The position numbers and the translations under genes were made by a program. From assembly GCF_027158005.1 (NCBI RefSeq), contig NZ_JAPVLQ010000001.1, positions 434,001 through 498,000 on the forward strand: a stretch of DNA of 64,000 nucleotides, read 5' to 3'. Shown here piece after piece: positions 33,505 through 57,679 of this stretch; positions within the stretch are counted from its first letter, which is position 1, and each line of letters starts with the position of its first letter. Source of the stretch: Rhodococcus sp. H36-A4 (GTDB lineage: Bacteria; Actinomycetota; Actinomycetes; Mycobacteriales; Mycobacteriaceae). The notes beneath the pieces were generated by a model. The model was not told where the DNA came from, made no database searches, and saw only the letters and a list, made by a program, of their open reading frames with translations.

Positions 33505-33534
33505 TTCTTCGCCCTCGCTACGATGACCATTTGC

Positions 33535-35390: not shown

Positions 35391-35416
35391 CGAAAATACC
35401 TCTCTGTCGAATGTTT

Positions 35417-35644
35417 TCAGTACTCGCCGAGCGCGACGGCGATCCAATGCGCGACGGTCGGGTCGGCGGCAAGCGTCGGAAAGTCGATATCGGGCGCACC
35501 CGCGGACCGCCATCGTTCCACAAGCCCCATGATGCGGATCGAGTCCAACCCTTCGTCGAGCAGGTTGGTGTCCTCGCTGATCGAGCCGAGCGGCCGATCC
35601 AGGGCGGTGGCGATATCACCGATGACGGTCTCGCGGGTGAGCAC
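35417..35644 (-). CDS. Free-standing aryl carrier protein for 2,3-dihydroxybenzoate
   Basis: A 75-residue carrier domain. The phosphopantetheine Ser lies in LLDEGLDSIRIMGLVERW, with the D-S-I-R form typical of aryl carrier domains such as that of EntB, rather than the G-G-D-S of peptidyl carriers. It would hold activated DHB and pass it to the first condensation domain of the NRPS. In many clusters this domain is fused to isochorismatase; here the isochorismatase (50965-51639) lacks it. GTG start at 35644 with AGGAAG upstream. Confidence 0.88.
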   Translation of the reverse strand: MLTRETVIGDIATALDRPLGSISEDTNLLDEGLDSIRIMGLVERWRSAGAPDIDFPTLAADPTVAHWIAVALGEY

Positions 35645-36761: not shown

Positions 36762-39700
36762 TCATTCGCCTCGCCCTATGTCTACGAGTTGCGCCAGCGC
36801 GGCAACCGATTGACGGGTGAGAAGTTCGTTGACATCCACTGCGATGCCGGTTCTTCGGGTGAGCATCGACACCAGAGCCATGGCGGCCAAGGAGTCGCCG
36901 CCACTGTCGGCGAAGCCGTCATCCGCACCGATCTCCTCCAGCCCGAGCACTGCGCAGAATACCTCGGCCACCGTGCGCTGGCTGTCGGTATGCAAGCTCT
37001 CGCCGGCATGTCGAGCTGGAGGATCCGGGAGCGCGCCGCGATCGAGCTTTCCGTTGACGGTCAGCGGTATCGACTCGATGTTCACGATCTGCGCGGGTAC
37101 CAGATGTGCGGGAACCCGGTCCCGAAGCATCTCCCGCAGATCCCGCTCCGACGGTGCGCCGTCGGTCACCACGTATCCGATCAACCGGCCGCTCGAACCG
37201 TGCTGCCGCACGGTCGCAGCGGCTCTCGCCACGCCGGGTAGGGCTTCGAGGGCAGACTCGACCTCTCCCAGTTCGATTCGGATTCCGCGGATTTTGACCT
37301 GCCGGTCGGCACGTCCGAGATACTCCAGCCTGCCGCCTTCGCTGTAGCGGACCAAATCTCCGGTGCGATACATCCGCTCACCCGACCCGTCCGGATCGGC
37401 CACGAACACCGCACTGCTCTGCCCTGCTCGGCCTCGGTATCCGCGCGCGATACCGTCCCCCGACATGTAGAGCTCCCCGACGGCACCCGGTGCAACTGGA
37501 CGAAGACCCGAATCCAACACCCGCGCAACCGCATTGCGTACCGGGGTTCCGAGGCACGGCGTCTCGCTGTCGGCGACCGCCGAACCCATGGCGTTGATCG
37601 TGAACTCCGTCGGGCCGTACAGGTCGTAACCGTCGACATCACGCTGATCGCGCAGGCGCGTCCACAATTCCTGCGGGACTGCTTCGCCGCCGAGCATGAC
37701 CAGCGTCGGTGCCCGCTCGCCGTCGAGCAGACCGGCGGCGATCAATTCCCTTGCATAGGAAGGTGTCACGTTCACCACGTCGATTCCCACGCTGCGGTAG
37801 TGCTCGACCAACGTGACGGGGTTGGCTCGCGCATCCTCGTCGATGACGTGGACATGGTGACCGGCGAGCATCCAGAACAGTTCTTCCCACGACATGTCGA
37901 AGGAAAACGACACCGTGTGTGCAATGCGTAGCTGCCTGCCCCCCACGATGTGTTCGGTGCGCGCGAAGATCTCGTCGCGATGATTGTGATACATCGAGGT
38001 CAGCCCGCGGTGACCGATCTCGACGCCCTTGGGTTTACCCGTCGAACCCGAGGTGTAGATGATGTAGGCGGACTGATCTCGATGACGTGGTCCATCGACC
38101 TGATCCGGTGACACCGGTTGCGCCGGAACATGTCCGGACAGGATGTCGCTCACTGCTGGATCGGCCAGATCCACGACCGCGATGTCCAGCCCCGCTACGA
38201 CGACGGCGGCCGCAGTTGCGGACGAGGTGACGATGGTCGTGGCCCCGCTGTCGGAGAGGATCTCCCGCGACCGCGAAGCCGGATTCTGGCAATCGAGTGG
38301 GAGGTACGCTGCGCCCGCGCGCATCACGGCGAAGATTGCCACCACATGTTCGGTGGTACGTGGGAGCAACAAGGCGACCACGTCACCGACGCCGACACCC
38401 GTCGCGACGAGGTATCGCGCCATCGCGGTCACAGCGTCGTCGAACTCGCGGGCGCTCAGTGTCACGTTTCCGCACGTCAATGCGGGTGCATCGGGTGTCG
38501 CCGCAGCCCGCTCGGACAGCAACGCATCGATGCTGCCCTCGCGCTCCCCCGGACCTGGAACCGCAACGCGATCGGCGATCAACGGCGTCCGCTCCAGTTC
38601 ATCGAACCGTCGGCCGGTGTCGGCGACGGTCCGCGAACCGATCAGCGCCGCCAGCATCTCGGTCATGATTTCCAGCAACGATTCGGCAGTGCGATCGTCG
38701 ATGAGATCCGGGCGGCTTTCCATCGTCACCTCCATCGCGCCACTGCGACTTCGCGGATCGACGTCGACCGTCATCGCGTAGTGCGTGGCATCGTCGGCCT
38801 CGGCAGCAGTGATACCCGCACGTTCGAACACCTCGACGCGGGCAGCGTCGCCGCCGATGTTACGAAACACGAGCAGCGTGTCGAACAAGGTGGCGAACCC
38901 TGCCGCACGGCTGATCTCGCCCAACCCGAGATGCTGATGTTCGATCAGCCCGCCCTGCTCTGCGAGCATCTCCTTCAACAGTTCCGGCAGCAGCGCCGCA
39001 GGGCGCATTCGCACCCGGACGGGGACGGTGTTGAGCGTCGGACCCACCATGCGATCGATCGACGGCACTACCGGGTCCCGCCCGGACACGGTGGAGCCGA
39101 AGACCACATCGTCGCGTCCGGTGAAGCGTCGCAACGTGAGAGCCCACGCCAATGTCACCACGGTCGAGACGGTGACTCCGTGTGTTGCGGCAGCGGAGAC
39201 GATTCCGGCACTCACGTCGGCATCGATCGCACGCGTGCGTCGATGCGGAAGCGCCATGCTCGCGCGATCTGGCGCTGGTGCCACCGACGTCGGCTCGGCG
39301 AGGTCGCCCAGGTATCGAGCCCACGCGTCGGTAGCACCGACGACGTCCCGCTCAGCCAGTCGCCGGAGGTGATCGGTGAAGTCCGCCGGCGGATCGAGCA
39401 CCCGCGCCAACGCCGACACCATGTCCGACTCCTCCGAGTAAAGGCCGGCCGTCATGCGCGCCACCCCGTACAGCACGAACAGCTCGGTGAACATCACACC
39501 CTGCGACCACGCATCGGTCAACAGATGGTGCTGAGTGACGATGAGTTCCTCGGAACCGCTCGGCGTCACGGCAATCAGCATCCGGATCAACGGCGCACGA
39601 TCGAGGTCGAAGGCTCGCCCGAATTCAGCCGCGGCGATTGTGTCGAGTGTGGTGTTGCCACTCTGCATGTCCGTGATCGATATCGTGCTGGGGCCGACGA

Positions 39701-42700
39701 TCGCAACGGGCTCGGCAAAAGCGGTGTGTGTGAAGGCGCCGCCGAGGTTCGGATACCGGCGAAGCACTGCATTCGCTGCTGCACCGAGCGCACGTCGATC
39801 GATCGACGCAGCGAAGGTGAACCGGTGCTGCACATGATAATTGTCGGTCGAGGTTTTGCCGCCGGTCACCGACTGGAAGTACATGCCTCGCTGCAGCGGC
39901 GTCAGCGGGAGAACCTGCTGCCACCCGGGATACGACGCATTCAGCATTTCCCTGGCCTGCTCGTCCACCTCTACGAGCTCACCCGGGAACCCTTCTGCCT
40001 CGGGGACTGCCCCTGATTCCGTGCGGGACGCCCCGGCCGCAAGTTCGGTGAGACTGCTCGCGTCGAAGACGTCGGCGACGGCGATGTCGACCCCTCGCTT
40101 GGCAGCGGCTGCAACGAACCGCACGGCGGCGATGCTGTCACCGCCGAGTTCGAAGAAGCTCGATGCCGGATCGACCTCGATACCCAGAATCTCCCCGGCC
40201 GTTGCGAGCAGGTCGGCCGATACGGTGTTCTCCGACACTGCCTTTCCGGACACTGCCTTTCCGGACACTGTCTTTCCCGATACTGACGGGGGAGCTGCGA
40301 TCTCGGGTTCGGGAAGCGCGGATCGGTCGAGCTTTCCGTTCAACGTTCGGGGAAGGCGGTCGATCACCGTGATCGTCTGCGGCACGAACTGATCGGGCAG
40401 CATGTCCGCGAGTTCCCCGCGCATCCGAGAGATGTCGCCGGCTGTGTCTTCGGGTGTCGTCCCCAACACGACATAACCGAAGAGGCGGGCAGTGCCGTCG
40501 GCGATCTCGACGACCTTGGCTGCCGCGTCATGAACGCCGGGCAGTGTCCGCAGCGCCGTCTCGACCTCACCGAGCTCGACTCGGAATCCGCGTACCTTGA
40601 CCTGGTCATCGGTTCTTCGCAGGTACTCGGTGCGTCCTCCTCTGCGACGCACGAGATCGCCTGTCCGGTAGAGACGTTCGGTGGCTCGCTCCGGATCGGC
40701 GACGAATCGAGTTGCCGTGTGACCGGGCCGTCCGAGGTATCCCCTGGCCACCTGGGCTCCCCCCAGATACAACTCGCCGCTTGCGCCCTCGGGAACCGGC
40801 CGCAACATGTCGTCGAGAATGTGCGCTCGCACCCCGTCCCACGGGGACCCGATGCTGACGGGATTGCCACGTGTCATCTTGTCCGCAGTGGCCCATACGG
40901 TGACTTCGGTGGGCCCGTACACGTTCCACACCTCGGCGCAGGCGCCCGTCAGCGCATCGGCCAGCGCGGCCGGAACGGCCTCACCACCGATGAGTGCACG
41001 CAACCGAGCAAGACGTGCACCGGAATCGAGAAGCAACCGCCACAGCGACGGTGTCGCCTGCACCACGGTCACGCCGTAGTCCTCGATGATCGTCTCGAGC
41101 TTCGCCGGATCCACCACCGACGCCCGTGGAACGAGAACCACGGCCGCGCCGACCGTCAACGGACACAGCAATTCCAGCACTGCGATATCGAACGAGACAG
41201 TGGTCACGGCCGCGAGTCGGTCGGTGGGACGTACCCATCCCATGTCGGTCACCGCGTCGGCGAACACCGCCATGTTGGCGGTGGTGACCATGACGCCCTT
41301 GGGCTTTCCCGTCGTTCCCGAGGTGTGGATGATGTAGGCCAACTGATCGCTTGCCCCCGGGGGCGTAGGCAGTACGACATCTGCTGATGTATCAACCTTG
41401 CCCGCGTCGACCTGCGGTAGCGCCATCCACCGGATCGAGTCGGCCACGGCGGCAGTGGTGATGACACAGACCGGAGCTGCATCATCGATCATGTACTGCA
41501 ACCGCTCCCGCGGATAGTCGATGTCCAGCGGGAGGTATGCCGCACCGCATCGCAGCACTGCGAGCAGTGCGATGGGCAGATTCCAGTCTCGTTCGACGGC
41601 GACACCGACGACGCAACCAGGACCCACCCCAGTCGCGATCAATTCTCGCGCAAGCGAATCGACCTGTGCGCCCACGTGGCGGTAATCGAACACACGCCCG
41701 CCTGCCATGATCGCCACGTCTTCGGGTCTCGTGTGAACTTGCTCCACGAACCGCTGAATGACCGAACGGGGAGCAGCACTCCGGCTCGGCTCGTCCGCAG
41801 GTGGAAGGTCTGTACCGATCTGGATGATCGACGTATCCGGGCGATGCACCACGACGTCGAGTACAGCGAAAATCTCGTCGAGTAGATACGCCGCGGTGGC
41901 CGCATCGAACAGATCGGCGTCGGCACCGAGTCGGATGTCGGTGTACGGTCCGCGTTCGCGCAACCACACCACGACGTCCATCCGGGCGGGTGGATCGATC
42001 GGGTCGACCGGTCTCGCTTCGACCTCGCCCAACCGAACCGGTTCGCCACCGATCTCGTGTCCGACGAAGGTCTGGAACAGCGGATGGCGTCCGTTCGCTC
42101 GTGCGGGCGCTACCGCATCGACTACGCGATCGAACGGAACCTGCTGGTAGGAAAGCGCATTCACCCCTACTGTGCGCACTCGGTCGAGGACCTGCGCGAG
42201 CGTGGGGTTGCCCGCCAGATCGATCCGATGAACGACGGTGTTGACCAGGTACCCGACCGTGTCCCGATACCTGCCGTCGTCGAACAGTTCTCGCTCCGAC
42301 ACCGTCGTGCCGAGCGCGATGTCCTCTCCTGCGCCGAACCGCTGCCACGCCAACGCCACTGCAGTTTCCATCAGCATCAGTGGACTGACTCCATAGCGGA
42401 CGGCGGCAGCGCGGACGGCGGTAGCCATGGCGTCGGTCAGTTCTCGTGTCGAAAACACCGAGGTGTGTGTGGGATGTCGTGGGCGAGGCCGGTCCATCGG
42501 CAGTTCCAACTCGACCGGCAGCGAGGCGAGGTGCGATCTCCAGTACTGCAACGCCTCCTGCGCTTCGCTCGAATTGATCCGGGCGCGATCGGCTGTTGCG
42601 AACTCCGCAAACTCGAGAGCCTGCTCGGTCGGCGGCACAGCCGTGCCGTCCAGGTGACCGCGATAGGCCGTGGCCAGGGCGCCCAGTATCAGCGACACCG

Positions 42701-45700
42701 ACGCGCCGTCGACGGCGATGTGGTGAATCACGATCACCAGTGCTGCCCAGTCCGGCCCGGTGAGATGAACCGTTCGTACCGGTGCGGCGTTCTCGATATC
42801 GAATGCTGCTGTGGTACTCGATAGTTCACCTCGGACGGCATCAGTGAGCGAGAGCGCACTCTCACGAGTCAGCACTGCGGGTATCGCGTCCTCGGCAAGG
42901 ACCACTACCGAGGGCTCGCCGTTCTCGGCAGCTGGATAGCAGGTCCGCAGTATCGGGTAACGGATGATCACCTCGCGCCACGCGGCACCGAGGGCGTCGA
43001 GATCCACCGGACCCGACAGTTCCAGCACCACCGGCACATCGTGCGTGTGCGAGGAGGGCTCGAGGTGCTGCAGAATCCACAGTCGCTCCTGAGCGGACGA
43101 GAGCACCGGCACGCTGCTCGCTATCTCGTCGTTGCGTTGCCCAGCAGTCGGAACGAGGTCGACGGAGACCGTGCGCGAGAGCGACGCCAGCGCGCGCGGG
43201 GTGCGCGCACCGAAGATGTCGGCGACGGTCACCACGATTCCGCGCTTACGCAGGCCACTGACTGCACGCATCGCAGCCAGCGAATGGCCGCCGTGCTCGA
43301 AGAAGTCGTCCTCGGGCTGCAACGGGGCATCGAGTACCTCGGCCAACACCTCGGTGACGGTCCCCACCGCTGGCACGCTGAAGGCTGGAACACCGATAGC
43401 CGGAACACGCACGGTTGCAGGGGTATCGGCAGGCAAGGAGGTCAGCCTGTTCACGGACGAGGGCACGAGATCGGCGGCGGGAGAATCGAGACCGACCAGC
43501 ATGGCCTCGATGACGTTCGGTAGCGCCGCCGCGACGGCCGAAGCAGTAGCCGAGTCGACGGCGGTCGGATCGTGATCGACCACGAGCCGGAAGCTCTCGC
43601 CCGGAGGTGCGAGCAGCGACAACGGGAATTGGGTCAGACTCAGATTGCCCACTGCGGTGATCCGCGTGGCGTCGGGATCGGTGTCGACCGTCTCGCCCCC
43701 GAAGAGCGCAGGGTAGTTCTCGAACACTACAAGTGTGTCGAAAAGAGCAGTGCCACTATGGACGTCACTGCAGGCGGCGATGTCCGGCGATGGCAAGTGC
43801 TCGGCATCACCGAGGTCGTATTGCTCGCTCTGACTTTCCCGGAGCACCTGCGCAAGCGGGCGATCGTCCAGACGCATACGGACCGGAACCGTCGTACTGA
43901 ACAGTCCGACCATCTCTTCCACCCGCGCCAGGTCGGCGGGCCGTCCGGACACCGTGGTGCCGAAAACGACGTCCGCGCGGCCGACGAGCGAGCACAGCAC
44001 TGCGCTCCAGGCACCCTGAACGAACGTGTTGACCGTCAACCCGTTCTCGCGGGCCGCGACTGCAAGGCGGTCCCCCAGCGATCGAGACAGTGTCACTTCG
44101 GTGGTTACGGCGTGTTCGCCGGTGCTCTCTCCTCTCGCCACCAACGTCGGTTCCGACAGCCCGGACAGTCTGAGCTCCCAAGCGGCACGCATTGCACTGC
44201 GGTCGCGCCGAGAGAGCCACCTGATGAACTCGGCGTAATCCGCAGCCGGAGGAAGCGACCGATTTCCATGGTTGTAGTGATGCACCAACTCGCGCAGGAC
44301 GATCGGAGTAGACCACCCATCCGTGACCAGGTGGTGTGCATTGAGGATCAGTTGTGTCCGCTCCCCCGGCAATGCCAGTACGTGCGCAGCCAGTAGCGGT
44401 CCGGTGCGCACGTCGAAGACGCGACCGGCAGCCTGTTGCTGTGCCGACGATGCGGCCGCCGCCGCGGTCTCCGACGGCAGCAACCGCAGATCGCTACTTC
44501 GCCAGGCGATGTCGATCGTGCGCGGCACGGCCTGCACCGGAGTGTCCAGGGTGTCGAAATGGAAGCCCGCTGCAAGATTCGAGTGACGGGCCACGACGCT
44601 CGCGAACGCCCTGCGCAGTCTCTCGACGTCGAGGTCGCCTGCGAGATCGACCACCGCAGTGAGTGTGTAGACGTCGTGATCGGCATAGCGTGCGGAATGA
44701 GCGAGCAACCCCTCTTGCAACGGGGAGAGCGCCATCACCCGCTCCAGCGGACCGGTCAGCAGTTCGAGCTGTCGAATCTGTCCCTGGGTGATCACGACGT
44801 CGGGGCAGTCGACTGCGCTGAGTCCGCCCGGCGACAATGCTGCATGCGCGGCAAGAGCGGCGAGTGCACCGTCGAAGCATTCTTGTAGCGAGGTCACACT
44901 TGCGGTGTCGAGCACTTCGCTCGCAGCGGTCCACTCGAACTCGAGAAGCATCCCCGCTGGGCTTTCGCAAAGGAAAGCGTTGAGCGCCAATGCCTCCGAG
45001 AGCACCCGGAGCGGTGGTTCGACGACCCCGAATGAATCCGAGGACACGCTCCGCCACCCCTGGCCCACCATCGACGTCGACTTGCCGAGGTAATTCAGCA
45101 CGATCTGCGGCGACGGTAGGGCCGAGAGCGCCTTACCCGCGTCGTCGAGGAATCGTAAGACCCCGTAACCGAGGCCGTTGTCCCGGCCGACCTGTCGTCG
45201 CGCTTTGATCTCGTGGAGGAGGTCGGCCACGACGCCGCTTCCTGCCAGCGCCCCGCGCAGCATCTTCTCGTCCGCGAGGAGCGATACCGGCACCGATACC
45301 GGGTATTCGGTGGTGAACCATCCCACGGTCGAACCCGGGCCGACCGAGGTGCGTTCGTCCGCATCGCGGCCGTGGCCCTCCATCATGACGGGGAAGTCCA
45401 TCAGTGCGCGGCCGCAGTGGGCGCGCACCGCGATCGTCAATGCAACGAGCAGCATCTCGTCGGGGCGCATCCGGTACTTGCTGCACAGGTCGTCGAGGAC
45501 GGCGCCGGTGATGGCCGAAGTTGCCGAAGTCCGCGTGATCGACGCACTCGCGTGAGTGTCGATGCCGCCGCGAAGCGCCCCACCGGCAAACGGCTCGTTG
45601 CCGCTACCCAGCACGGTGTGCCAATGATCGAGCTCGTCGAGGTACCGGTGCACGGTGCCGCGAGCGGCCAGATCCAGTGCGCGGTGCCGCCACGAAGTGC

Positions 45701-48700
45701 CAGTGCGGGGAGCCAGGCCATGTCCGCGGCACGCCGAGACGAAGTCGGTCAGTAGGACAGGCCACGAGACCGCGTCCACGGCGAAGTGGTGCACGACGGT
45801 CAGTACCACATCCGGTCCATCGGAGACTCGAATCACGGCCGACTGCATCAGGTTTCCACGATCGAGCGATAGCGAATCCGCCGCGATACGGGCGTAGTTC
45901 GCGAGTGCGCCCTCGACCTCGCGAACAGTGAGGGGACCGTACTCGGCCACCTCGACCTCTGCGCCCGATACGGTCTCGACAATTTCCACGCCCGCCGGAT
46001 CCCGAACGATCATTCTCAGGGCAGGATGGTGATCGAGCACAGCCAGCACTGCCTCGCGCAGGGTAGCGAGATCGAGAGCGTCGTCCACCTCGACGGCGGT
46101 CCATTGGGCGTACGCCGCAACTGTGTCGATCGGGTTGTGGTCGAGAACGTTGCGCATGATCGGCGACGTCGGGGCCGGTCCGAACTCGATGTCGTCGACC
46201 GAGGCTTCGATATCGGTGGCCAGGGTCCTGCTCGTCTCGGCGAGAGTCACCAGATCACGGCCGGACAGCATCTCCTTGGGCGTGAGCAGCACTCCGTGAC
46301 TACGCAGGCGAGAGCTGATGCTGATCGCAGCGATGCTGTCGCCCCCGAGTGTGAACAGGTCGGCATCGAGAGCGACCTCGTCCAGATCGAGGACCTCGGC
46401 GATCACCGAGCACAACGCATACTCGGCGGCGGTGCTCGGAGTTCGCGAGGTCGGTGTACCGATCCGCTGTGGATCGGGAAGCTTCGCCCGATCGACCTTG
46501 CCGTTGACCGTCACCGGCAGTCGGTCGAGGATTGTCACCACCGACGGCACCATGTGTTCCGGAATTCGGGTGAGTAGATCGCGTCGAACCTGGTCGCCGC
46601 CCAAATCGGTAGCTTCGCTGTCGGCAACGACGTAGCCGAGCAATTTTGCTGCCGAACCGGTTCCGGTGACGACGGCGACCGCGGAGCCGACGCCCACGGT
46701 GTGTGCCAATGCCGCTTCGACCTCACCGAGTTCGACGCGATGTCCACGAATCTTGACCTGATCGTCGGCTCTACCGAAGTATTCGTATCCGCTCTCGGCG
46801 TGCCATCGAGCGAGGTCACCGGTGCGGTACATGCGGTCACCGGTGCTACCGAACGGGTTTGCCACGAAGCGGTCCGCGGTGGCCTCGGGTTGATCGAGAT
46901 ACCCGCGCGCGAGTTGTGGTCCTGCGAGATAGAGCTCACCCGTCTCACCCTCCAGAACGGGCCGGAGCGCAGTGTCCAGCAGGTATGCCGCGGTCCCTTC
47001 CAGAGGCCGACCGATACGCACTGTCGGCCCGTCGACCTGGGCACCGATCGCATCGACGGTGGCTTCTGTCGGTCCGTACATGTTGTAGACCCGCGCCGCG
47101 CTCGTCACGAGCCGCCCGGCAAGACTCGACGGCAGGGCCTCACCGCCGACAACTATCGTGCCGAGGGGTGCGAGTCCTGCGTCGACGAGGAACGCTGCCA
47201 TCGACGGCGTCGTGTCGATCACATCGATACGGTCTGCCGAGAACCGTTCGACCTGTTGCTCCGCATCGCGCTGTACGTCACTGTCGTACAAGTGGATTCG
47301 GTGCCCGTCCAGAATCCACAGCAGCGGATCCAACGAGGCATCGAAGGCGAACGAGGTGGTGTGCGCGACGCGAAGGCGTCGACCTCCGGCGCGAAGAGTC
47401 GCATCGGCGTACAGCGTGTAACGGTGGCGCTGCACCAGGTTTCTCAGTCCGCCCGTGCGGACCATGACGCCCTTCGGCGTTCCGGTCGAACCCGAGGTGA
47501 ACAACACGTAGGCCAAGTCTTCGGGGTGTCGTGCACTCGCGAGCTCGTGCGACGCCAAGCGGTCACCACGCAGGGACGCCAGCTCACGCTCTGTTCGATC
47601 GAGGCCCAAGTACACTGTTTCGCAATCGATCTCGAATATCGGTGCGTCCACTTCGCAGATCGACAGGGACGGCTTCGAGCGCGCGGCGAGGTCGTTCAAT
47701 CGCTCGGCGGGATATGCGGGGTCGAGAACGACGTATCCCGCGCCCGCCTCCCAGACGGCGAACATCGCCGCCACCAGATCCGAGGATCGAGCAAGCGCGA
47801 GCGCGACAACGTCGCCGGTGCCTACGCCGCGGTCCCGGATCAGACGCGCGATCCGGTAGACGCGATCCGCGAGTTCGGCGGCGGTGGTGACTTTATCGGA
47901 TTCCGCCAGCACCACGGTGTCCGGCCGGGTGGCAACCATTGCCGCGAACATATCGGGTATGAACCCCTGATCGGACTGTGTGGACACCGAGCCGGACTGT
48001 GTGGCTAGCGGGGCAGAGGTCCATGCCGGATCGACTCCCCCGCAGCGTAAGTCCACCTGGCCGAGCTGGGGGCTCGCGGGCGAGCACAGCGCCGACAGCA
48101 GGGCGGACAACCCGTCGACTCGAGCTCGCACGCACGCCTCGGGGACCTCACCGGCGTCAACTTCGAATCCCAGCAACATTCGCCCACCCTCGATCGGGGT
48201 AGCGGTGAGACCGAACTCCTCGGGCGGCCCACCCGCGACATTGCGCAGGGTCCCGACGGCACCGCCGAAGTTCAGCTCGAAGTCGAAAGCCTTGAGATTG
48301 ATTCCGACGCCGTGCAGAATCGCGCCCGCGTCGGGAGCGGCGAGGTCTCGAACGAGATCCTCCCCGCGGTATCGCTGGTGCTCGCGTAGTTCCCGTAGGG
48401 CGGTCGCCACCGACGTCGCCAACGCGGAGATGTCGCTGACGAGATCGACCGACACCCGCAGTGGAAGAACGTTTACGGCCATCGAGGGCGTGGTCAGCGA
48501 GGCCCGAGTGGTACGCACCATCATCGGAAATGCGACCACGACATCCGACGTGCCGAGCAGACGGGCCACGAAACCGGTGTAGGCGCCGATCAGCACGTCC
48601 GCCCACGTGCAGCCACAGTCGTCGGCGATCGCCTTGATTCGGTCCATAGCGTCGCTGCCGACGATGGTCGTGGCCGAATGGGTCCGCCCGCTCGGGCCGT

Positions 48701-49376
48701 CATCGGAGCCGGTGCGTCGGAGATCTTCTGGAAGTGGCTCGAGTCGGCGTGACCAGTACAGCCGATCGGTCTCGAAATCCGAGGATCGACGATAGCGCCC
48801 GTCCTCGTCCACCACTTCACCGAAAGATCCGAACGCATTGGGGCGCAATGCCGTACCCGCAACCGAAGCGGTGTAACGCGCAGCCAATCGACGCGAAATC
48901 ATGGCCGCTGAGTAGCCGTCGACGATCAGGTGGTGGTAGAGCTGAACACACCACACCTCGGTAACCGACAGGCGCAGCAGGGTGTAGGCGAAGAGTCCAC
49001 GATCGACCATGCTGCGACACTCCGCGGCTGCTTGCGCCCTGCATTGCAGGACGCGCTCTGCGGCACTCGCTCGCGGGTCCGCTTCCTCGGTCAGGTCGAT
49101 GATCGGCACCGACACCGCACCTGCATCGACAATCCACTGCCGAGGTCCGTCCTCGGTCTCGACGAAACGTAGTCGCATCGTTTCCGCGTCGTGGACTGTC
49201 GCCTCGATGGCCTCGACGAGAGCGACAACATCGATCGCAATCTCGTTCGCTGTTCCGTCTATCTCGAGGACCTCACCGACGAGGTAGTACGGCGACTCCG
49301 GTTCGAGGCGTTGGGCATTCCAGATTCCCACTTGAGCGCCGGTCAACGGTAGCAACGTAGCTGCGGTCATCTTCAC
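36762..49376 (-). CDS. htbG: Four-carrier NRPS for a heterobactin-type siderophore (C-A-T-E-C-T-C-A-T-C-A-T)
   Basis: A 4204-residue synthetase. In order: C1 (to 440, HHLIVDG at 148), A1 (475-970), T1 (Ser1014), E (1070-1520, HHFAVD at 1196), C2 (1540-1975, HHLVTDG), T2 (Ser2032, no A domain), C3 (2088-2525, HHIAVDG), A2 (2535-3025), T3 (Ser3081), C4 (3150-3600, HHLLTDA), A3 (3615-4118), T4 (Ser4162). There is no thioesterase. By alignment to the GrsA pocket I read A1 as DADDVGMVDK (basic side chain, likely Arg, then epimerised), A2 as DILQLGVVWK (Gly) and A3 as DMENMGLINK (N5-hydroxy-Orn). C1 would accept DHB. The Arg/Gly/hOrn set matches heterobactin as I recall it. GTG 49376 overlaps dhbE as GTGA; ATG 49370 is an alternative. 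Confidence 0.9.
40217..40291. repeat. 15-bp minisatellite-like repeat in the NRPS A2-T3 linker
   Basis: About five imperfect 15-base units (core GGACACTGCCTTTCC) encode the linker pentapeptide S-G-K-A-V at residues 3031-3053. The number of units may vary between strains. Confidence 0.8.
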
Positions 49377-50968
49377 TGTCTTTTCTTGTCGATTTTGCCG
49401 ACAGAGGTCTTCGGAAGTTCGGTCACGAACTCGAAGCGATCCGGCACGGTGTACGCCGCCACCTTGCGCTCGGTGCGGAGAAACTTCCGGAGGAGACTTG
49501 CGGTCGGCGAGTCCGATTCGGGATTCCGGCGGATGACGTAGGCACAGATCTTCTCTCCCAGAACATCATCGGGGAACCCCATCACCGAGACGTCGTGAAT
49601 TTCTTCATGGGCCAGCAGGTGGTTCTCCACCATCGCCGGAGCGACTTTCTCGCCGCCACGGTTGATCTGATCCTTGGTTCGCCCGACCACTCGCAGGTAT
49701 CCCCGACTGTCACGGGTCACGATGTCGCCGGTGCGGTAGAAGCCGTCAGCGGTGAACGAGGTGCTGTTGTGTTCGGGCGCCCTGTAGTAGCCCCGAATCG
49801 TGTAGGGCCCACGCGTGTACAGGTTGCCCGGTTCACCGTCGCTTACAGCGCGACCCTCGTCGTCGACGACGAGAACTTCGTCATCGGGCGAAATAGGTCG
49901 ACCGACCGTGGTGCACACTGTCTCCTCGTCGTCGCCCGGTCGGGTGTAGTTGACCAGTCCTTCGGCCATACCGAAAACCTGCGTCAACGCGCAGCCGAGT
50001 TCGGGGGTGACTCTGCGTGCGACCTCGGCCGACAGTGTGGCGCCGCCGACCCAGAGGCCGATCAAGGATGAAATATCGCTACCACCGAGCAAAGACGAGT
50101 TCAGCCAGGCGACGAGCAGCGGTGGCACGAGGGCCACGTGTGTCACCGAATGACGTTCTACGAGAGCGAAGCAGGTGTCCGGGCTGGGGTCGGGTGCCAT
50201 GACCACACATCCGCCGACCGCCAGGACTCCCAGAAGACCGGGCGAGCTCATCGTGAAATTGTGTGAGATAGGCAGCGCCGCCAGCATCACCGAGGATTGC
50301 CCGAGATGACAGATTCGGGCACTCTCGCGAACGGAGTACAGGTAGTCCTCGTGTGTGCGGGAAATGAGTTTGGGGGTTCCGGTCGTACCACCGGACAGCT
50401 GGAGAAACGCGACATCGGAGGCGAGGGAACGATTCTGCCGTGGAAGCGGTGTGCCGCCTGCCCACTCGGCGTCACCGTGGGAAACCACCACGGTGATCAG
50501 ATCGGGGAAGGCCGCACCGATCTCCGCCGCGATGGCACCGAAGTCGGTCATGCCGAAACGATCGACGCAGACGTACCCTGCCGCGGTCGTCGCAGCACAG
50601 AACTGAGCGATGTCACCAGCACGGTGGGCGGCCAGCGCGAACACCGGTAGCGCGCCGAGTTCGAAGAGCGCGAAGACCACCTCGACGTACTCCGTCGTAT
50701 TCGGCATGTGCACGATCACCCGGTCGCCGCGACGGATCCCACGTGCATCGAATTCGGCCGCGACCACGGCCACGCGGTTCGCTAATTCCGTGTAGGTCAG
50801 GCTGCGCGAATCGTCGACCACCGCAACGCGAGTGGGATGAGCGGCGGCACTGAGCGCCAACAGATCCGAGTGAGTCCGATCGATCCAGTAACCCTTGCTG
50901 CGGTACTCGGCAGCGAGATCGTCCGGATAGCCGACGACGCCGTCGAGCAGCAGCGGCTCGACGGTCAA
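49373..50968 (-). CDS. dhbE: 2,3-Dihydroxybenzoate-AMP ligase
   Basis: A stand-alone adenylation enzyme that activates 2,3-DHB and loads it onto the aryl carrier protein. The 531-residue protein has GYWIDRTH near the start, core motif [31 protein letters not shown] (aryl-acid pocket with Asn), [12 protein letters not shown] and the C-terminal [16 protein letters not shown] and [10 protein letters not shown]. The frame runs up to 51175, but the TTG at 50968 overlaps the isochorismatase stop as TTGA and gives the family N-terminus. It overlaps the NRPS start by four bases. A salicylate-AMP ligase is the alternative, but dhbA, dhbB and dhbC make DHB far likelier. Confidence 0.92.
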
Positions 50969-51639
50969 CTTCTCGCCCCAGCCCCGGCCGCCGACGCAGC
51001 GGGCGCGCGGCGTAGTGATTCGGTGACCGTGTCGGTGGTGACGACCACGCCGCATCGTTTGGCCGCGTAGGTCGCTGCCATGAGGTGCTCGTCGCGGGAG
51101 AAGTCCGCGGTCGCGTCGAGGACAAGGAACGGGCACACATCGGACATGAAGGCCTCGGCCGCGCTGAGCATGCACCCCATGTGTGCATAGACGCCGGTGA
51201 TGATGAGTTGATCTCGCCCATGATGACCGAGCAGTTCACGCAGATCGGTTCGCTGAAACGCCGAGTACCGCCACTTGGTGACCTCGATGTCACCGCGCTG
51301 GGGTCGCAGTGCCTCGATGACCTCGGTGTCGCGACCCGACCCGAGACCCGGGCCCCAGAAGTCCGCCAGAATTCCCCGACGAGAGGGGTGTTGGTCACCT
51401 GGTTGCATGGTGAACACCACGGGGATATCGAGCTCCGTGGCCAGCGTCCGGATCGCGGCGATGTTCTCGGTCACCGAGGTGATCAATTCGGGGGCGTCGC
51501 GGTACGCATCGATGAAGTAGTTCTGCATGTCGTGGACGAGGAGTGCTGCCCTGCTCGGGTCGAGTTCCCAGTCGACCGCGTTTGCTGGGATCTCCTCGCG
51601 GGTGGGCATCGTGTAGCTCGCAATTCGCGGTATCGCCAT
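50965..51639 (-). CDS. dhbB: Isochorismatase (single domain)
   Basis: It splits isochorismate to 2,3-dihydro-2,3-DHB and pyruvate. The 224-residue protein keeps the catalytic Asp in [10 protein letters not shown], the Lys in [10 protein letters not shown] and the Cys-region loop [14 protein letters not shown] of this hydrolase family. The carrier domain found in EntB/DhbB is absent; a separate gene supplies it 15 kb downstream. The C-terminus ends in a low-complexity Ala tail. ATG 51639 has AGAGGAACG upstream. Confidence 0.92.
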
Positions 51640-51676
51640 ATTTTCGTTCCTCTCGCTTGGTGTGGTTTCTCGGCGG

Positions 51677-53425
51677 TCAGCGGTGACGGCTCCAGGCCGC
51701 CCACAGCTCCGCATACCGGCCCGCCCGTTGGAGCAGATAGTCGTGCGAACCCGTCTCGATGATCTGTCCCTTGTCCATCAACATGATTCGGTCTGCGCGA
51801 CGGGCCTGGCTCAATCGATGCGCAACGATCAGCGCACTGCGGCCCTCGATCGCTGCCTCCGCGGATCGCTCCAACAGCGACGCGCCGGCACTACCTGCAT
51901 CCGCGGTCGCCTCGTCGAGAATGACCACCGGCGGATCGAGAAGCACCACTCGTGCGAGGGCTAGCTGTTGAGCCTGCATCGGTGTCAACCGATGCCCGCC
52001 ATCGCCTACGCGGGTATCGAGGCCATCGGGCAGCAGGTCGAACCAGTCACCTGCGAGAACCTTCCCGAGCGCCGACTCCATCGCCGCGTCGTCCGCGTCC
52101 GGGTCCGCCAGCGCCAGATCCTCGCGCAGCGTCCCGGTGAAGACGTGTACCTCTTGCGAGACGAGCACGATCCGTTGCGCTCGTTGCACTTCGGGTGCAT
52201 CGAGCAAGGAAACCGAACCGAAGTTCACCCGCCCGCGATCGGGTGAGAACACCCCGGCGAGCAAAGCCGCAAGAGTGCTCTTACCTGCTCCGGAGGAACC
52301 CACGAGCGCGACGGTCTCACCGATCGCGATGCTGATGTCGACTTCGTCCAACACCGGAGACGACGCCGAGTATCCGAAACTCACTTGCCTCGCCTCGAGC
52401 ACCCCGGCGGCCGGCAACGCGATCGACTCCTCTCGCGTCGAGAGCACTCCATCACCGATCTCGATGACCCCGACGATGCGAGCCAGCGATGCAAGTGCCG
52501 ATTGCAACTCGTCGATCACGAGCAGGAGAGCATCGATCGGATCGAACAACCGAAGGAAGAACAGCATTGCCGTCGTCGTCGCGCCGACCGTCAACGCATC
52601 GGCGCCGACGAGAAAGTAACCGATGACCAGCAGGGCTGCCATCGCGACGAACTGAGCCGTGTTGAGCCGACCGTAGAACCGGTTCTGGACGATCCGCGCT
52701 CGCATCGTCCAGCGGACGACCTCCCACGAGTGAAACCCGATGCGGCTCGACAATTTCGGTGCCAGATCGAATTCGTGCACCGTCCTGAGGCCGCGGATGG
52801 ACCCGAGTACCTGTTGTGCGCGCAAGCCCATCGCTGCCCGCTCGGCGGCGTAGATACCCGGCGCATGTCGCAGATACCACCGCACTGCCAGCACGTAGAT
52901 CGGAACCACCAGCACCAGCGCACCGAGGAACCGCCAATCCAACGCCGTCAAGCCGACCGCGGTCAGGATCACTGTGAACAGCGAAGTCGACAGGGCGGGC
53001 ACGACGTTCTCGATTGCCGAAGAAACCTCGTCGACGTCGTCGGTAGCGCGGGAGAGAAGATCTCCGCTTCCAGCTCGTTCGACCCGTTCGAGCGGTAGCG
53101 ACAGACTGGTGGCGAACATCCGCTCACGCAGTCGAGCGAGTGCCGTTTCGAACAACCGCGAAGACAGCACGACCCCGAGGGCGGTGAATCCGGCAAATCC
53201 CAGTGCTGCACACACCATCACGATGCCGAGCACCCAGATTCGATCGGAGGCGCCCTCCTCGATGACGACGTCGACCATTCGCCCGAGAGCCCACGGCGCA
53301 ACGAGACCCAGAGCGGCACCGATGACCATGGTCGTCACGACGGCGGCCAGAGGTCCACCCTGACCGGCCAGCGAACGCCGCACCTCGGCTCGGACGGCGC
53401 GCGCGTCCGCTATCGGTAGCTTCAC
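51677..53425 (-). CDS. ABC half-transporter, catalytic-site subunit (siderophore cluster)
   Basis: A 582-residue type IV ABC half-transporter: six membrane helices and an ATPase with intact Walker A (GSSGAGKST, about 376), Walker B Glu (VVILDEATAD, about 505) and switch His (VAHRLSQ, about 536). Its signature is degenerate, LTPMQ instead of LSGGQ. It pairs with the next gene, whose defects are the mirror image. Relatives act in siderophore export or, like YbtPQ and IrtAB, import. It overlaps its partner as ATGA. Confidence 0.88.
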   Translation of the reverse strand: MKLPIADARAVRAEVRRSLAGQGGPLAAVVTTMVIGAALGLVAPWALGRMVDVVIEEGASDRIWVLGIVMVCAALGFAGFTALGVVLSSRLFETALARLRERMFATSLSLPLERVERAGSGDLLSRATDDVDEVSSAIENVVPALSTSLFTVILTAVGLTALDWRFLGALVLVVPIYVLAVRWYLRHAPGIYAAERAAMGLRAQQVLGSIRGLRTVHEFDLAPKLSSRIGFHSWEVVRWTMRARIVQNRFYGRLNTAQFVAMAALLVIGYFLVGADALTVGATTTAMLFFLRLFDPIDALLLVIDELQSALASLARIVGVIEIGDGVLSTREESIALPAAGVLEARQVSFGYSASSPVLDEVDISIAIGETVALVGSSGAGKSTLAALLAGVFSPDRGRVNFGSVSLLDAPEVQRAQRIVLVSQEVHVFTGTLREDLALADPDADDAAMESALGKVLAGDWFDLLPDGLDTRVGDGGHRLTPMQAQQLALARVVLLDPPVVILDEATADAGSAGASLLERSAEAAIEGRSALIVAHRLSQARRADRIMLMDKGQIIETGSHDYLLQRAGRYAELWAAWSRHR

Positions 53426-55134
53426 TTGTACTCCAACACTTTCGAGTGGCCCGCGGACACGGTCTCGACCGTCAACACCCGCGAGGCCGCAGCCAACAGA
53501 GCAGGCGCCGAGGTGAACACGATGGTCGTGCGACCGCTTCGCTCCCGAACGATGCGCTCTGCCACCACCGCTTCGGTGACCGAATCGACCGCGGTCGTCG
53601 GATCGAGAAGAACCAGCACTGCCGGATCGGCAGCCAACGCCCTCGCAAGGCAGACTCGTTGACGCTGTCCACCCGACAACAGCCGACCTGCCTCACCGAC
53701 GTCGGTGTCGAGCCCGTCAGGTAGAGCCAGGGCGACGTCGTCGCAGGCGGCAGCGAACACTGCCCGTGTCACTGCATCGTCGGTGACGGGGCCTGCAGCC
53801 TCGATGTTGTCGAGAACCGTCCCCTCGAACAAGTCACTGTGGTGTGGAGCAACCAGCAGGGTCTTCCTGCGGTCGGATCGCTGCAGTGCGTCGATGTCGA
53901 TGCCGCCGACGGTGACGGAACCTGCTTCGGGTCGGGCGAGTCCGCCGAGTACCGCGGCAAGCGCGGCCGTGACCACCGGGTCCGCCTGCACGGCAACGAA
54001 CTCGCCCTCCGGCACTTGCCAATTCACTGCGCTGACGCCGCCGCATTCGGTACCGACGAAGTTCATCTCGAAACCGGTGGCAACTCCGAGATTGGCGGGC
54101 CGCTCGCTCGCGTACTCGGCATCGAGAACGCTCGCTACTCGTTCCGCCGAGGCCAGAGCCCCAGCCCAGATGGTGCCGAAATTGGATGCGAATGCCTGGA
54201 GCGGGCCCAGGACGAACTGTGTCACCGCAACCACGGTGATCAGCTGACCAACGGTCATCGCACCACCGACCGCCATCAGACCTGCCGCGACCGCAACGCC
54301 TGCGATGAACAACCCGGACACTGTCTCCATCGAACCGAGGTAACCGGCCCGAGCCACATTCGCCTTCAACGTTCCCTGCAGGGCGCGCTCGCTGGCAGCC
54401 TGGTAACGCCGACCTGCCGCGTGCTCTGCACCGATCCCCTTCACTATCCGGAACCCTCCGACCAGGTCGGAGGCGGTACCGGCAGCCTCCCCGGCGACCT
54501 GCTGCTGCTGAACACTTCTGCGGCGCAGTGGAGACCCGGCCCGGTCCATCAGCCACAGCATCAGCGGCGTCGCAACGAGGATGGCCAGCCCGAGCGGCCA
54601 GGAAATGGTCAGCAGGATCACTGCTGCGAAGATCACTGCGGCGAACTCACCGAGGGGGTAGATGACGATTGCGACCGAAGTCGCCAGGGCACGCGCGTCG
54701 GAAGTGGCAATACTCAACAACATTCCGGGTTGACGAGCAGGTCCGGCCATGCCGCGTGCATCGAGGATGCGATCGGTGATCTTCGTACGCACCTGATGCG
54801 CGATGGAATTCATGCCGAGGAATCCGATGCGCCCACCGAAGCGAAAGGTGAACGACACGAAGGCGTAGTCGAGCGCCAGTACCGCGATCCACAGGACCAT
54901 CTGCCGAGGGTCACGTGCGCTGATCGCTCGGTCGATCGCCAGGCCCATGATAACGGGAACCAGTGCAGCGCAGAGCTGATGGACGATCATCAGCACCCCC
55001 GCCGGGATCGTGTACTTCTTCGCCGCGAACATGGTTCGTAACGTCAGCTGACGTGGCGTCGTCGACGACGTGATCGAAATATCGGTGGTCGGGAGTGGAG
55101 TCACAGGCGCGTCGAAGAAAATCGGCAGTTTCAT
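53422..55134 (-). CDS. ABC half-transporter with degenerate ATP site (siderophore cluster)
   Basis: A 570-residue partner of the previous subunit. The membrane domain is normal, but the nucleotide-binding domain lacks the Walker A Gly/Lys (QADPVVTAA where GxxGxGKST is expected, about residue 383), has LLLDPTTAVD with Pro instead of the catalytic Glu (about 512), and Ser instead of the switch His (VFTSAP). Its signature LSGGQRQR is perfect. It therefore cannot build a site of its own but completes the partner's. ATG 55134 shares a base with the upstream stop (TGATG); GTG 55137 is also possible. Confidence 0.88.
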   Translation of the reverse strand: MKLPIFFDAPVTPLPTTDISITSSTTPRQLTLRTMFAAKKYTIPAGVLMIVHQLCAALVPVIMGLAIDRAISARDPRQMVLWIAVLALDYAFVSFTFRFGGRIGFLGMNSIAHQVRTKITDRILDARGMAGPARQPGMLLSIATSDARALATSVAIVIYPLGEFAAVIFAAVILLTISWPLGLAILVATPLMLWLMDRAGSPLRRRSVQQQQVAGEAAGTASDLVGGFRIVKGIGAEHAAGRRYQAASERALQGTLKANVARAGYLGSMETVSGLFIAGVAVAAGLMAVGGAMTVGQLITVVAVTQFVLGPLQAFASNFGTIWAGALASAERVASVLDAEYASERPANLGVATGFEMNFVGTECGGVSAVNWQVPEGEFVAVQADPVVTAALAAVLGGLARPEAGSVTVGGIDIDALQRSDRRKTLLVAPHHSDLFEGTVLDNIEAAGPVTDDAVTRAVFAAACDDVALALPDGLDTDVGEAGRLLSGGQRQRVCLARALAADPAVLVLLDPTTAVDSVTEAVVAERIVRERSGRTTIVFTSAPALLAAASRVLTVETVSAGHSKVLEYK

Positions 55135-56426
55135 CACGTCAGCACGGCGTCGAGCATCGCCCTGGAAGCGAGTGAGTCCACGAGTTCTCCGGATCGCACC
55201 GCGATGTTCGACAGCAACGAGGAGGTCAGTCCGTGCGAGTGCTCTGTTCCGCCCTGGAGGTAGATCCCACCGGTGACGTTCTCTGCGGTGCGCAGTCGGT
55301 AGTCGCGTTGGACCTCAGGAGTTCCGTCCGCAGCGAAATTGCAATCATCGGCAAGTGGACCCAGGATGGCACGCAGATCCAGCGGTTGGAAACCGGTCGC
55401 GAAAATCACTGCGTCACAGAGCAATCTGTCCTCGCGGCCCGTCGGTCGATGATGCACCGATACCTCTACCCCTGCCCCGGTCACGCGCGGCGTCGACACT
55501 TCGGACGCACCGTGGACGAACAGCCTGCGGTCGCCGGACACTCGTTCCCCGTACTCACGCTCGTAGAGTTCCTCGATCAACGGCAAATCGACGGCGGAGT
55601 AATTGGTGCTGCGGTGGTAGGCAATCAATTGTTCGCGAAGCTGCGGGGACGAAGTATAGAAGTCGTCGACGGCTTCCGGATCGAAAACTCGGTTGGCGTA
55701 GGGACTGTCGTCGGCAGGGCTGTACCCGTACTTGCCGAACACGGCGTGCACCTCCGCGCCGGGGTACCGATCGTGGAGGTGGGCGAGCACTTCGGCGGCG
55801 CTCTGGCCTGCACCGACCACGACGAATCGCTGATGGCGTATCTCCGGCAATCCCTCGAGATGATCGAGTACCCGGTGATTGTGGAAAACGCGCTCCCCCG
55901 TTACGACGCCCGCGGGGAGTTTCGGGGTGAGCCCGCCTGCAAGCACGACCTCGCGCGAGCGCAGAGTGCGACCCTCCCCATCCGATGTCTCGACGGTGAC
56001 CTCGAAATGCTCACCCGTCCACGCAACTCCGGTGGCCGACGAGCCGTAGAGCACGTCGGCGGCTACTTTGTCCGCCGCCCAGGTCAGGTAGTCGTGGAAC
56101 TCCAGTCGGGAGGGAAAGAACGTCTGCAGGTTGATGAAGTGCGTCAAACGACCACGCTGCGAGAGGTATTCGAGAAACGTGTACTCACTGCCGGTGTTGC
56201 GCTGCGTCGCCAGATCCTTGAGAAACGAAATCTGCATGGTCGCGCCGGGCAGCAGCATGCCGGGATGCCAGGTGAAGCCGGGTTGTCTCTCCACGAACAT
56301 CGAGGTGAGGCGGTCACCTGCGGGCACCTGCGCGTTACGTTCCTCCAGCGCTATCGCAAGTCCCAGGTTGGACGGTCCATAGCCGACTCCGAGGATGTCT
56401 ACTACGTCGGGAAGGGTGTTCGCCAT
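55134..56426 (-). CDS. L-ornithine N5-monooxygenase
   Basis: A flavin- and NADPH-dependent hydroxylase of the SidA/PvdA family that makes N5-hydroxyornithine, the hydroxamate unit selected by A3 of the NRPS. The 430-residue protein has the FAD motif GVGYGPSNLGLA, substrate region MQISFLKDLATQRN, NADPH motif VVGAGQSAAEVL and the C-terminal ATGFQP. ATG 56426 is used; the first 110 residues of the open frame (to 56756) lie beyond the iron boxes and are not real. It heads the long siderophore operon. Confidence 0.93.
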   Translation of the reverse strand: MANTLPDVVDILGVGYGPSNLGLAIALEERNAQVPAGDRLTSMFVERQPGFTWHPGMLLPGATMQISFLKDLATQRNTGSEYTFLEYLSQRGRLTHFINLQTFFPSRLEFHDYLTWAADKVAADVLYGSSATGVAWTGEHFEVTVETSDGEGRTLRSREVVLAGGLTPKLPAGVVTGERVFHNHRVLDHLEGLPEIRHQRFVVVGAGQSAAEVLAHLHDRYPGAEVHAVFGKYGYSPADDSPYANRVFDPEAVDDFYTSSPQLREQLIAYHRSTNYSAVDLPLIEELYEREYGERVSGDRRLFVHGASEVSTPRVTGAGVEVSVHHRPTGREDRLLCDAVIFATGFQPLDLRAILGPLADDCNFAADGTPEVQRDYRLRTAENVTGGIYLQGGTEHSHGLTSSLLSNIAVRSGELVDSLASRAMLDAVLT

Positions 56427-56457
56427 GTGGTTCCAGTCATCCTTTGTCGGGTCGGAG

Positions 56458-56476
56458 TGAACGTAGCCTAACCTAT
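56458..56476. promoter_or_regulatory. IdeR iron box 1, facing the monooxygenase operon
   Basis: The 19-mer has TAGCCTAACCTA, a near-perfect right half of the iron-box consensus; the left half is weak. It overlaps a possible minus-strand -10 (TAGGTT or TAGGCT), so iron-loaded repressor would block the promoter. Confidence 0.7.
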
Positions 56477-56486
56477 TGTCGCCACA

Positions 56487-56505
56487 TGAGCTTAGGCTAC
56501 GCATA
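56487..56505. promoter_or_regulatory. IdeR iron box 2, facing dhbCA
   Basis: A core TTAGGCTA centred near 56496 agrees with the iron-box consensus. It lies about 50 bases upstream of dhbC, so the two boxes give each direction its own site. Confidence 0.6.
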
Positions 56506-56557
56506 CCCGACCGTCCGCGAGTCGACGGATCCAAGCGAGAAGAAAAGAGGTACGCGA

Positions 56558-57679
56558 ATGGGCTCTCACACTGCCGTCCACACCACCACCGGACGGTTCG
56601 TTCTCTCACGCCCCCACGGCTCGGTATCAGCGCAGGGACTGCGCGCCCAGTACGACAGCGTTGCCGCGGCCGAAGCTGCGCTGCGCTCGGGAGAAGTCCC
56701 CGCGATCGTCGGCGCCCTCCCCTTCTCCACTCAGGCACACTGCGCACTGTCCGCACCGGAAGTGTTCACCGTGACGCAACAGGCATGGAGTCCGAAGTCC
56801 GAATGCCCCTCTCTACCAACGTTCGTCCTCGCCGACCCACTCGATGACGGCGAACACACCGACCGAGTCCGCACTGCACTCGACGTACTCCGCGAGCCCT
56901 CGACGCCCCTGCAGAAGGTGGTCCTGGCACGCACGCTGACCCTGATCGCAGACGGCACGGTCGACCCGACCGCCGTTCTAGCGGCCCTGATAGCAGGAAC
57001 ACCCGAACGCAACGGTTATTGCGTCGACCTGAGCGCCGCAGGCGGCCCCTACATAGGCAGAACCCTCGTCGGATCGAGCCCGGAGGTACTTGTTCGCCGG
57101 CGTGGAACGGTGGTCACATGTCACCCACTGGCCGGATCTGCCCCTCGCCACCCCGACGCGGCGCGCGATCGGCAGAACGGACGCAGTCTGACCGAGTCGG
57201 ACAAGGACCGACGCGAACACGCCTTCGTCGTCGATGCAATCCGGGACTCGCTCGCCCCGTTCTGCAGCGAGCTGGACATACCGCCGGAGCCGACCCTGGC
57301 TCACACTCCGCAACTCTGGCACCTGGGCACTCCGATACGCGGCGAACTACGTGATCCATCCACTACTGCACTCGATCTCGCACGCGCACTACATCCCACA
57401 CCCGCTGTGTGTGGGACACCCACCGACCTCGCGTACCGCACGATCGAGGAACTCGAGGGTGAGCGTGGCTTCTACGCAGGCGCCGTCGGATGGTGCACCG
57501 CAGACGGGGACGGCGAATGGATGGTGGCCATCCGTTGCGCGGAGATCAGCAGCGACCGAAAGCGCATGACTGCCTACGCAGGCGGGGGAATCGTCGCCGA
57601 ATCGGACCCGGACACCGAATTACGAGAGACGGTAACCAAGTTCGGCACTCTCCTCGGCGCCCTCGGGGTGGCATTGTGA
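56558..57679 (+). CDS. dhbC: Isochorismate synthase
   Basis: It converts chorismate to isochorismate, the first step to DHB. The 373-residue chorismate-utilising enzyme has LQKVVLARTLTL, FVGSSPEVLV-like GSSPEVLVRRRG, HPLAGSAPRH and the C-terminal TPAVCGTP and GFYAGAVGW motifs with the active-site glutamates. ATG 56558 follows AAAAGAGG; the frame from 56444 would include the iron box. It is coupled to dhbA by GTGA. MenF/EntC-type menaquinone use is unlikely given the neighbours. Confidence 0.92.
   Translation: MGSHTAVHTTTGRFVLSRPHGSVSAQGLRAQYDSVAAAEAALRSGEVPAIVGALPFSTQAHCALSAPEVFTVTQQAWSPKSECPSLPTFVLADPLDDGEHTDRVRTALDVLREPSTPLQKVVLARTLTLIADGTVDPTAVLAALIAGTPERNGYCVDLSAAGGPYIGRTLVGSSPEVLVRRRGTVVTCHPLAGSAPRHPDAARDRQNGRSLTESDKDRREHAFVVDAIRDSLAPFCSELDIPPEPTLAHTPQLWHLGTPIRGELRDPSTTALDLARALHPTPAVCGTPTDLAYRTIEELEGERGFYAGAVGWCTADGDGEWMVAIRCAEISSDRKRMTAYAGGGIVAESDPDTELRETVTKFGTLLGALGVAL

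Follow-up and report, generated by a model that had tools for sequence, protein, structure and literature searches.

The nonribosomal peptide synthetase (NRPS) encoded in the window, that is, in the whole analyzed stretch of 64,000 nucleotides (64 kb) of Rhodococcus sp. H36-A4, contains a condensation domain and a carrier domain, C2 and T2, without an adenylation domain of their own. We propose that this pair is probably a working glycine-adding half-module which borrows the adenylation domain A2, that the product contains two glycines, and that the synthetases of the HtbG type represent a shortened form of the same assembly line.

The NRPS gene (36762..49376, minus strand, as are all features given below) encodes a protein of 4204 amino acids with the order C1-A1-T1-E-C2-T2-C3-A2-T3-C4-A3-T4, as annotated by Pfam and by profiles and motifs. 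Five condensation-type, three AMP-binding and four PP-binding stretches are recognized by Pfam. C1, predicted to attach 2,3-dihydroxybenzoate (DHB), lies at 48081..49355, A1 with T1 at 46254..47969, and the epimerization domain E, annotated by Pfam and profiles, at 44937..46178. C2 (residues 1543-1960; 43497..44750), which starts with SPLQEGL and carries HHLVTDG, is followed by a linker (43395..43496) and by T2 (residues 1995-2058; 43203..43394) with the motif GGHSL. C3 (residues 2088-2510; 41847..43115), with SSAQERL and HHIAVDG, was placed by annotation and by a structure-profile match. The chain is completed by A2 (residues 2541-3020; 40317..41756), T3 (40047..40235; GGDSI), C4 (38637..39929) and A3 with T4 (36801..38546). 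The original prediction had C2 joined by a short linker to T2, with its Ser2032, and C3 following at once; the annotation bears this out with a linker of 34 residues and with T2 ending at residue 2058. No thioesterase was found by Pfam in the window NRPS after T4 (36762-36801, minus strand), and the chain may be released by cyclization of the hydroxyornithine (hOrn). Several relatives (P0003, P0004, P0005, P0007 and P0010) carry a PF00975 domain, unlike the window NRPS.

The 34 residues between C2 and T2 compare with about 480-505 residues for the A domains of the same protein. In a six-frame search of the whole genome for AMP-binding domains, the window yielded A1, A2, A3 and the DHB-AMP ligase and nothing else, so that no cryptic A domain was found between C2 and T2, where Pfam shows none either. 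The cryptic domain, a check suggested at the outset, was rejected on this ground, and the claim that T2 has no A domain in cis stands. As in the A-less modules of the CmnI and HMWP2 type, C and T are both present and A is missing. The fold of C2, which had also been named for checking, appears sound: the motif HHLVTDGWS is retained, a C-domain fold is predicted with a mean pLDDT of 70.5 and a pTM of 0.64 from a 12-row alignment, and the best Foldseek matches of the model are C domains or C-containing NRPS chains. All 33 full-length proteins compared, the window's included, retain intact C2 and T2 motifs, and the dN/dS between the window and its close relative L061 is 0.09 for C2, 0.20 for T2, 0.22 for C3 and 0.16 for T3. 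Some NRPSs are able to pass over modules that lack an A domain, and the chain might likewise go from T1 directly to T3, with C2-T2 skipped or vestigial. The intact motifs and the low dN/dS argue against this, as does the fact that the pair lost in 13 of the 33 proteins is C3-T3 and not C2-T2, and we regard it as quite improbable.

A protein search with residues 1480-2180 as the query gave 1302 matches, from which the best 120 were taken. The exact domain order of the window occurs in 14 of the 121 annotated proteins (these 120 and the window's own), and the C-T-C-A-T order was also found in Nocardia vulneris, Pseudonocardia acaciae, P. halophobica, Kocuria varians and Rothia halotolerans. Since the identical order recurs in these proteins and in other genera, the A-less C2-T2 pair is evidently neither a product of chance nor an assembly slip. 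The label "orphan" that the pair had received is misleading because C2-T2 is conserved across genera. Within the genus, a match of 59% or more over nearly all of C2-T2 is present in 8 of 37 genomes, among them that of the window. Within the family, matches at an E value of 1e-85 occur in 42 of 401 genomes, and in 24 of these they span both C2 and T2. The samples of the order (8 of 397 genomes) and of the class (3 of 394) contained no relatives beyond those of the genus and family, and a further protein search returned long unrelated NRPSs only. At L077 (genome G199) the same synthetase is encoded by two overlapping ORFs, split between C3 and A2. C-T-C without A is also present in 28 other annotated proteins of different order, many of them from Streptomyces, so that C-T units without an A domain are in themselves no rarity. 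P0053, P0064 and similar proteins, many again from Streptomyces, form a separate set with A-less C-T units at the chain ends. A literature search, to which most subscription journals were inaccessible, found no description of the C-T-C-A-T form.

The NRPS gene is surrounded by genes for a DHB-AMP ligase, named DhbE-like by eye (49373..51175, with the true start probably inside the ORF), an isochorismatase (50965..51714) and a lysine/ornithine N-monooxygenase, the predicted supplier of hydroxyornithine (55134..56756). Two ABC half-transporters, FecCD permeases, an ABC ATPase, a periplasmic binding protein and two siderophore-interacting proteins are also encoded, together with a free-standing aryl carrier protein, LLDEGLDSIRIM, at about 35417..35644, whose start codon was chosen by eye from the sequence. 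Judging by this gene content, the cluster looks like one of the mixed catechol-hydroxamate siderophore type. No fused carrier domain was found in the isochorismatase (50965-51714); the usual isochorismatase-fused aryl carrier is absent and the carrier is the separate small gene at 35417-35644. One of the siderophore-interacting proteins, of the FAD-reductase kind, is fused to an O-methyltransferase-like domain (33540-35513, minus strand), and the second lies at 32611-33693 (minus strand). The single MbtH gene found in a search for such genes is located outside the window.

Among the roles that the original prediction offered for T2, loading by A2 is best supported, whereas carriage of a second DHB and acylation of the Arg guanidine are disfavored. 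In the latter case T2 would be loaded by DhbE, and C2 or C3 would acylate the guanidine. A DhbE-like gene is indeed present in the cluster, and heterobactin A bears DHB on its guanidine. Against this role stand the cluster's own free-standing aryl carrier, for which T2 as DHB carrier was rejected, and the position of T2 between a D-donor and an L/Gly-donor condensation domain. Furthermore, the GGHSL motif of T2 is of the peptidyl-carrier type, and a DHB-loaded T2 would offer C2 no amine to extend. We consider the role very improbable.

The adenylation codes were read from an alignment anchored on the core motifs. They are DADDVGMVD for A1, DILQLGVVW for A2 and DMENMGLIN for A3, which we take, from code tables and the work on heterobactin, to specify Arg, Gly and hydroxyornithine. 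The Rhodococcus qingshengii-type protein L085 has DADDVGLVD, DILQLGVVW and DMENMGLIN; the A1 code of the window differs from the HtbG-type DADDVGLVD by one position. All three codes are of the same kind in the C-T-C-A-T and the HtbG-type proteins, and A2 reads DILQLGVVW in both. The series (Arg), Gly, hOrn of a heterobactin synthetase is thus found in the window, under the substrate names assumed here, and so is the C-A-T-E start followed by C-T without A.

The types of the condensation domains are informative about the residue on T2. According to PMC8097023, 73% of the L-donor C domains have Arg as the gate residue and 80% of the D-donor ones have Gly. In the window and its relatives, all 21 proteins compared show Gly at this position in C2 and Arg in C3; in this 21-protein comparison the motif pattern failed on some C1, C4, T3 and T4 rows, and the state of T3 is taken from the comparison of 33 proteins. 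The best solved match of the C2-T2 profile by sequence is PvdL, and PvdL E2-C3 chains, in which a C domain follows an E domain, are within the first five Foldseek matches of C2. C2 is accordingly assigned to the D-donor type and C3 to the L/Gly-donor type, as their sequences indicate. The closest solved structure to T2-C3 of the window is PCP2-C3 of the fuscachelin synthetase of Thermobifida fusca (E about 1.5e-76), whose gate residue R2577 aligns with the Arg of SSAQERL. The first Gly module of fuscachelin is said to have its own A domain, which also seems to follow from the residue numbering, whereas its counterpart in the window has none. The gate Arg and the likeness to fuscachelin PCP2-C3 imply that T2 should carry an L or an achiral residue, and Gly fits. 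According to PMC8097023, the PCP2-C3-PCP3 construct of fuscachelin was assayed with a DHB-D-Arg-Gly donor and a Gly acceptor, the very step predicted for the window, and the HHxxxDE variant of the C-domain motif favors Gly acceptors. The window has HHIAVDG; DE, the form present in fuscachelin PCP2-C3, is found in 5 of the 21 relatives, while C3 of the window's own clade has DG and not the Gly-favoring DE.

We propose the following route. A2, located downstream of T2, would load Gly onto T2 as well as onto the T3 of its own module. DHB-D-Arg on T1 would be condensed by C2 with the Gly on T2, and the resulting DHB-D-Arg-Gly by C3 with the Gly on T3. C4 would then add hydroxyornithine to give DHB-D-Arg-Gly-Gly-hOrn, one Gly more than heterobactin. 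The second condensation is expected to take place in the window because the C3 and T3 motifs are kept and both domains look constrained by their dN/dS.

The main rival to loading by A2 is that T2 is never aminoacylated: C2 would pass DHB-D-Arg onto T2, and C3 would join it to Gly on T3, giving a product with one Gly, as in heterobactin. This reading is viable because of the small gate residue of C2, present in 21 of 21 proteins; PMC8097023 shows that a gate Arg keeps the unloaded carrier arm out and suggests that a small gate residue may permit such a pass-through. C3 speaks against it, being of the L/Gly-donor type with the gate Arg throughout and having a closest solved relative that takes a Gly-ended and not a D-Arg-ended donor. 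A second objection comes from the HtbG-type proteins, in which T2 seems obliged to carry Gly.

The HtbG-type class, with the order C-A-T-E-C-T, a shortened piece, A2 and C4, comprises twelve proteins in the comparison of 33; a separate survey of loci gave nine full-length members and one cut by a contig end. Of the twelve proteins, four are from Rhodococcus, six from Nocardia and one from Pseudonocardia, and the remaining one is P0121. A2 and C4 are separated by 28-57 residues in all twelve, compared with 113-129 residues in three intact forms, which shows that T3 is absent. In the four Rhodococcus proteins, P0121 and Pseudonocardia RS010, what separates T2 from A2 is a C-terminal half of C3 that lacks HHxxxD. 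In the six Nocardia proteins the intervening piece measures 82-112 residues and contains at most short traces of C3. As A2 is followed by C4 after so short a spacing, the chain has no carrier for Gly other than T2. With three residues to be borne by T1, T2 and T4, Gly is expected on T2, where A2 would load it from downstream. This loading is itself deduced from the domain content, and it would not prove that A2 acts in the same way where T3 is present. In about 51 kb around one HtbG-type gene (G261), a single other carrier-like match was found, weak and beside a DhbE-like gene; it is probably the aryl carrier. The HtbG-type synthetases would be the proposed line minus T3 and the function of C3, with A2 serving T2 only and one Gly left in the product.

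The second module of HtbG itself, from the Rhodococcus erythropolis group, was reportedly described by Bosello in 2013 as C-PCP-A. The identity of the HtbG type rests on this published module and on L085:8996-12745, which matches R. qingshengii IEGM 1359 at 99% over C2-A2; L085 adjoins P0125 in the tree, and the protein cluster of P0125 has 422 members. The order of the HtbG-type proteins fits the C-PCP-A arrangement. The window does not have it, since T2 and A2 are separated by an intact C3 and a T3 is present after A2. The two forms share the C-A-T-E-C-T start, the kinds of A code and the A-less C2-T2, but T3 and the catalytic half of C3 are missing from the HtbG type and intact in the window. 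The tie to HtbG drawn in the original prediction therefore holds in this form: the HtbG-type proteins look like the same line with C3 eroded and T3 gone.

C3 and T3 change together. The HHxxxD of C3 and the GGDS of T3 are both intact in 20 of 33 proteins, both absent or changed in 13, and never altered singly. The 33 are the P-numbered proteins and the window (21 + 12); the L-numbered loci, partly from the same genomes, agree and were not added. Outside the two classes are L077 with its two ORFs, L072 at a contig end, L092, L094 and three Corynebacterium loci. In Nocardia tenerifensis (P0145, which stands for a cluster of six sequences) C3 and T3 are both physically present, but the second His of the C3 motif and the T3 serine are replaced, and the motifs of C2, T2 and A2 are kept. 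In Pseudonocardia RS010, compared with its near relative P. halophobica, C3 has lost its N-terminal half and T3 the larger part of its length, including GGDSI. On a tree of 26 rows from which C3 and T3 were excluded, the C3/T3 state needs three changes, and three are forced by the starred branches. A tree with a single clade is rejected (p-AU 3.9e-5); these results hold for 26 hand-picked rows and quick trees; N. tenerifensis was scored as a loss, and the group was defined once the first tree had been inspected. C3-T3 thus appear to have been lost at least three separate times while C2-T2 were kept. The number of changes alone gives no direction; the half-domains and dead motifs point to loss rather than gain. 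Such repeated loss could mean that C3-T3 make no contribution to the product, and a T2 that only receives DHB-D-Arg would explain losses without a change of product. Taking the evidence on both sides together, we hold a never-aminoacylated T2 to be unlikely.

T2 might also be loaded in trans by a separate enzyme encoded elsewhere, which would place another residue between D-Arg and Gly. All three Corynebacterium loci (L109, L114 and L144) encode a synthetase with C-A-T, an E-sized stretch and then C-T-TE, and a stand-alone NRPS-type A gene just upstream of it. The E-sized stretch is matched as an E domain by similarity in L144 only and is unmatched in L109 and L114. The stand-alone A codes, DVGSIGLMD and DVASLGLMD, are not Gly-like, so that T2 in Corynebacterium would carry another residue. 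These loci are possibly true cases of trans-loading of an orphan C-T pair. At L109 and L114, an AMP-binding gene, DhbE-like by eye, lies just downstream. L092 and L094 are full four-module relatives; their module 2, the counterpart of the A-less one, has an A domain with the code DVAEYGTVD, which also favors a separate residue. Both adjoin two Nocardia two-module proteins in the N-terminal tree, and their extra A domain is nearest, though far (distance about 1.4), to the second A domain of those proteins. Module 2 of L092 and L094 may be a swap with such a Nocardia-type synthetase; the four-module form is not claimed as the ancestor because the tree position and the similarity of the extra A domain fit a swap equally well. 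For the window, loading in trans is opposed by the AMP-binding genes, which in the 64 kb are limited to DhbE and the NRPS A domains, with many more elsewhere in the genome, and by A2, which best explains the residue at the same place in the HtbG type. It is an improbable alternative to loading by A2.

The heterobactin product is DHB-D-Arg-Gly-hOrn. Arg as the substrate of A1 and the revised structure of heterobactin A are assumed here. With one DHB and a cyclized end, the computed [M+H]+ masses are 537.242 for the two-Gly product and 480.220 for DHB-Arg-Gly-hOrn; with two DHB they are 673.258 for two glycines and 616.236 for one. Heterobactin is printed with one Gly in PMC10972888, where a second NRPS, htbH, is also named; the latter counts against our proposal. 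Masses of 438.197 for heterobactin B and 694.212 for heterobactin S2 are given in PMC7824959. The former equals the value computed for DHB, Orn, Gly and cyclized hOrn (438.198; one Gly) and fits Orn, not Arg, while the latter fits none of six computed formulas.

Modules without an A domain that are loaded by other A domains are known. In HMWP2 of yersiniabactin (PMC9547227), several carriers depend on a single A domain, and one of these carriers belongs to an A-less Cy-PCP unit on that same polypeptide. There, however, the clients come after their A domain in the chain, and the units are heterocyclization domains. In the A-less module CmnI of capreomycin, the carrier is loaded by the A domain of another module (PMC12400406). 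CmnI is, however, a separate protein and receives L-Dap from the A domain of module 1, whereas the proposed loader and client in the window are on one chain with A downstream of T.

We give about even odds to a broader view, in which the C-PCP-A module of HtbG has arisen by erosion from a widespread Gly-Gly assembly line, with a single A domain supplying the carriers before and after it, and in which this line was shortened repeatedly by the joint loss of C3 and T3, with one glycine less in the siderophore each time. This would offer an origin for a published oddity, the HtbG C-PCP-A module that has been called "unprecedented". If true, a half-module with a borrowed loader keeps working in actinobacteria after each loss of C3 and T3, and within each of two near-identical natural pairs, Pseudonocardia halophobica with RS010 and Nocardia iowensis with N. 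tenerifensis, the products would differ by one Gly, or 57.02 Da. Comparison of such pairs would separate the sharing of an A domain from pass-through onto an unloaded carrier within one system. A testable rule would follow, namely that an A domain may serve carriers on both sides of it in one chain and that the line can go on operating after a module has been deleted. Each of the parallel losses would then be a natural experiment in the shortening of an NRPS and would predict a mass shift of one Gly.
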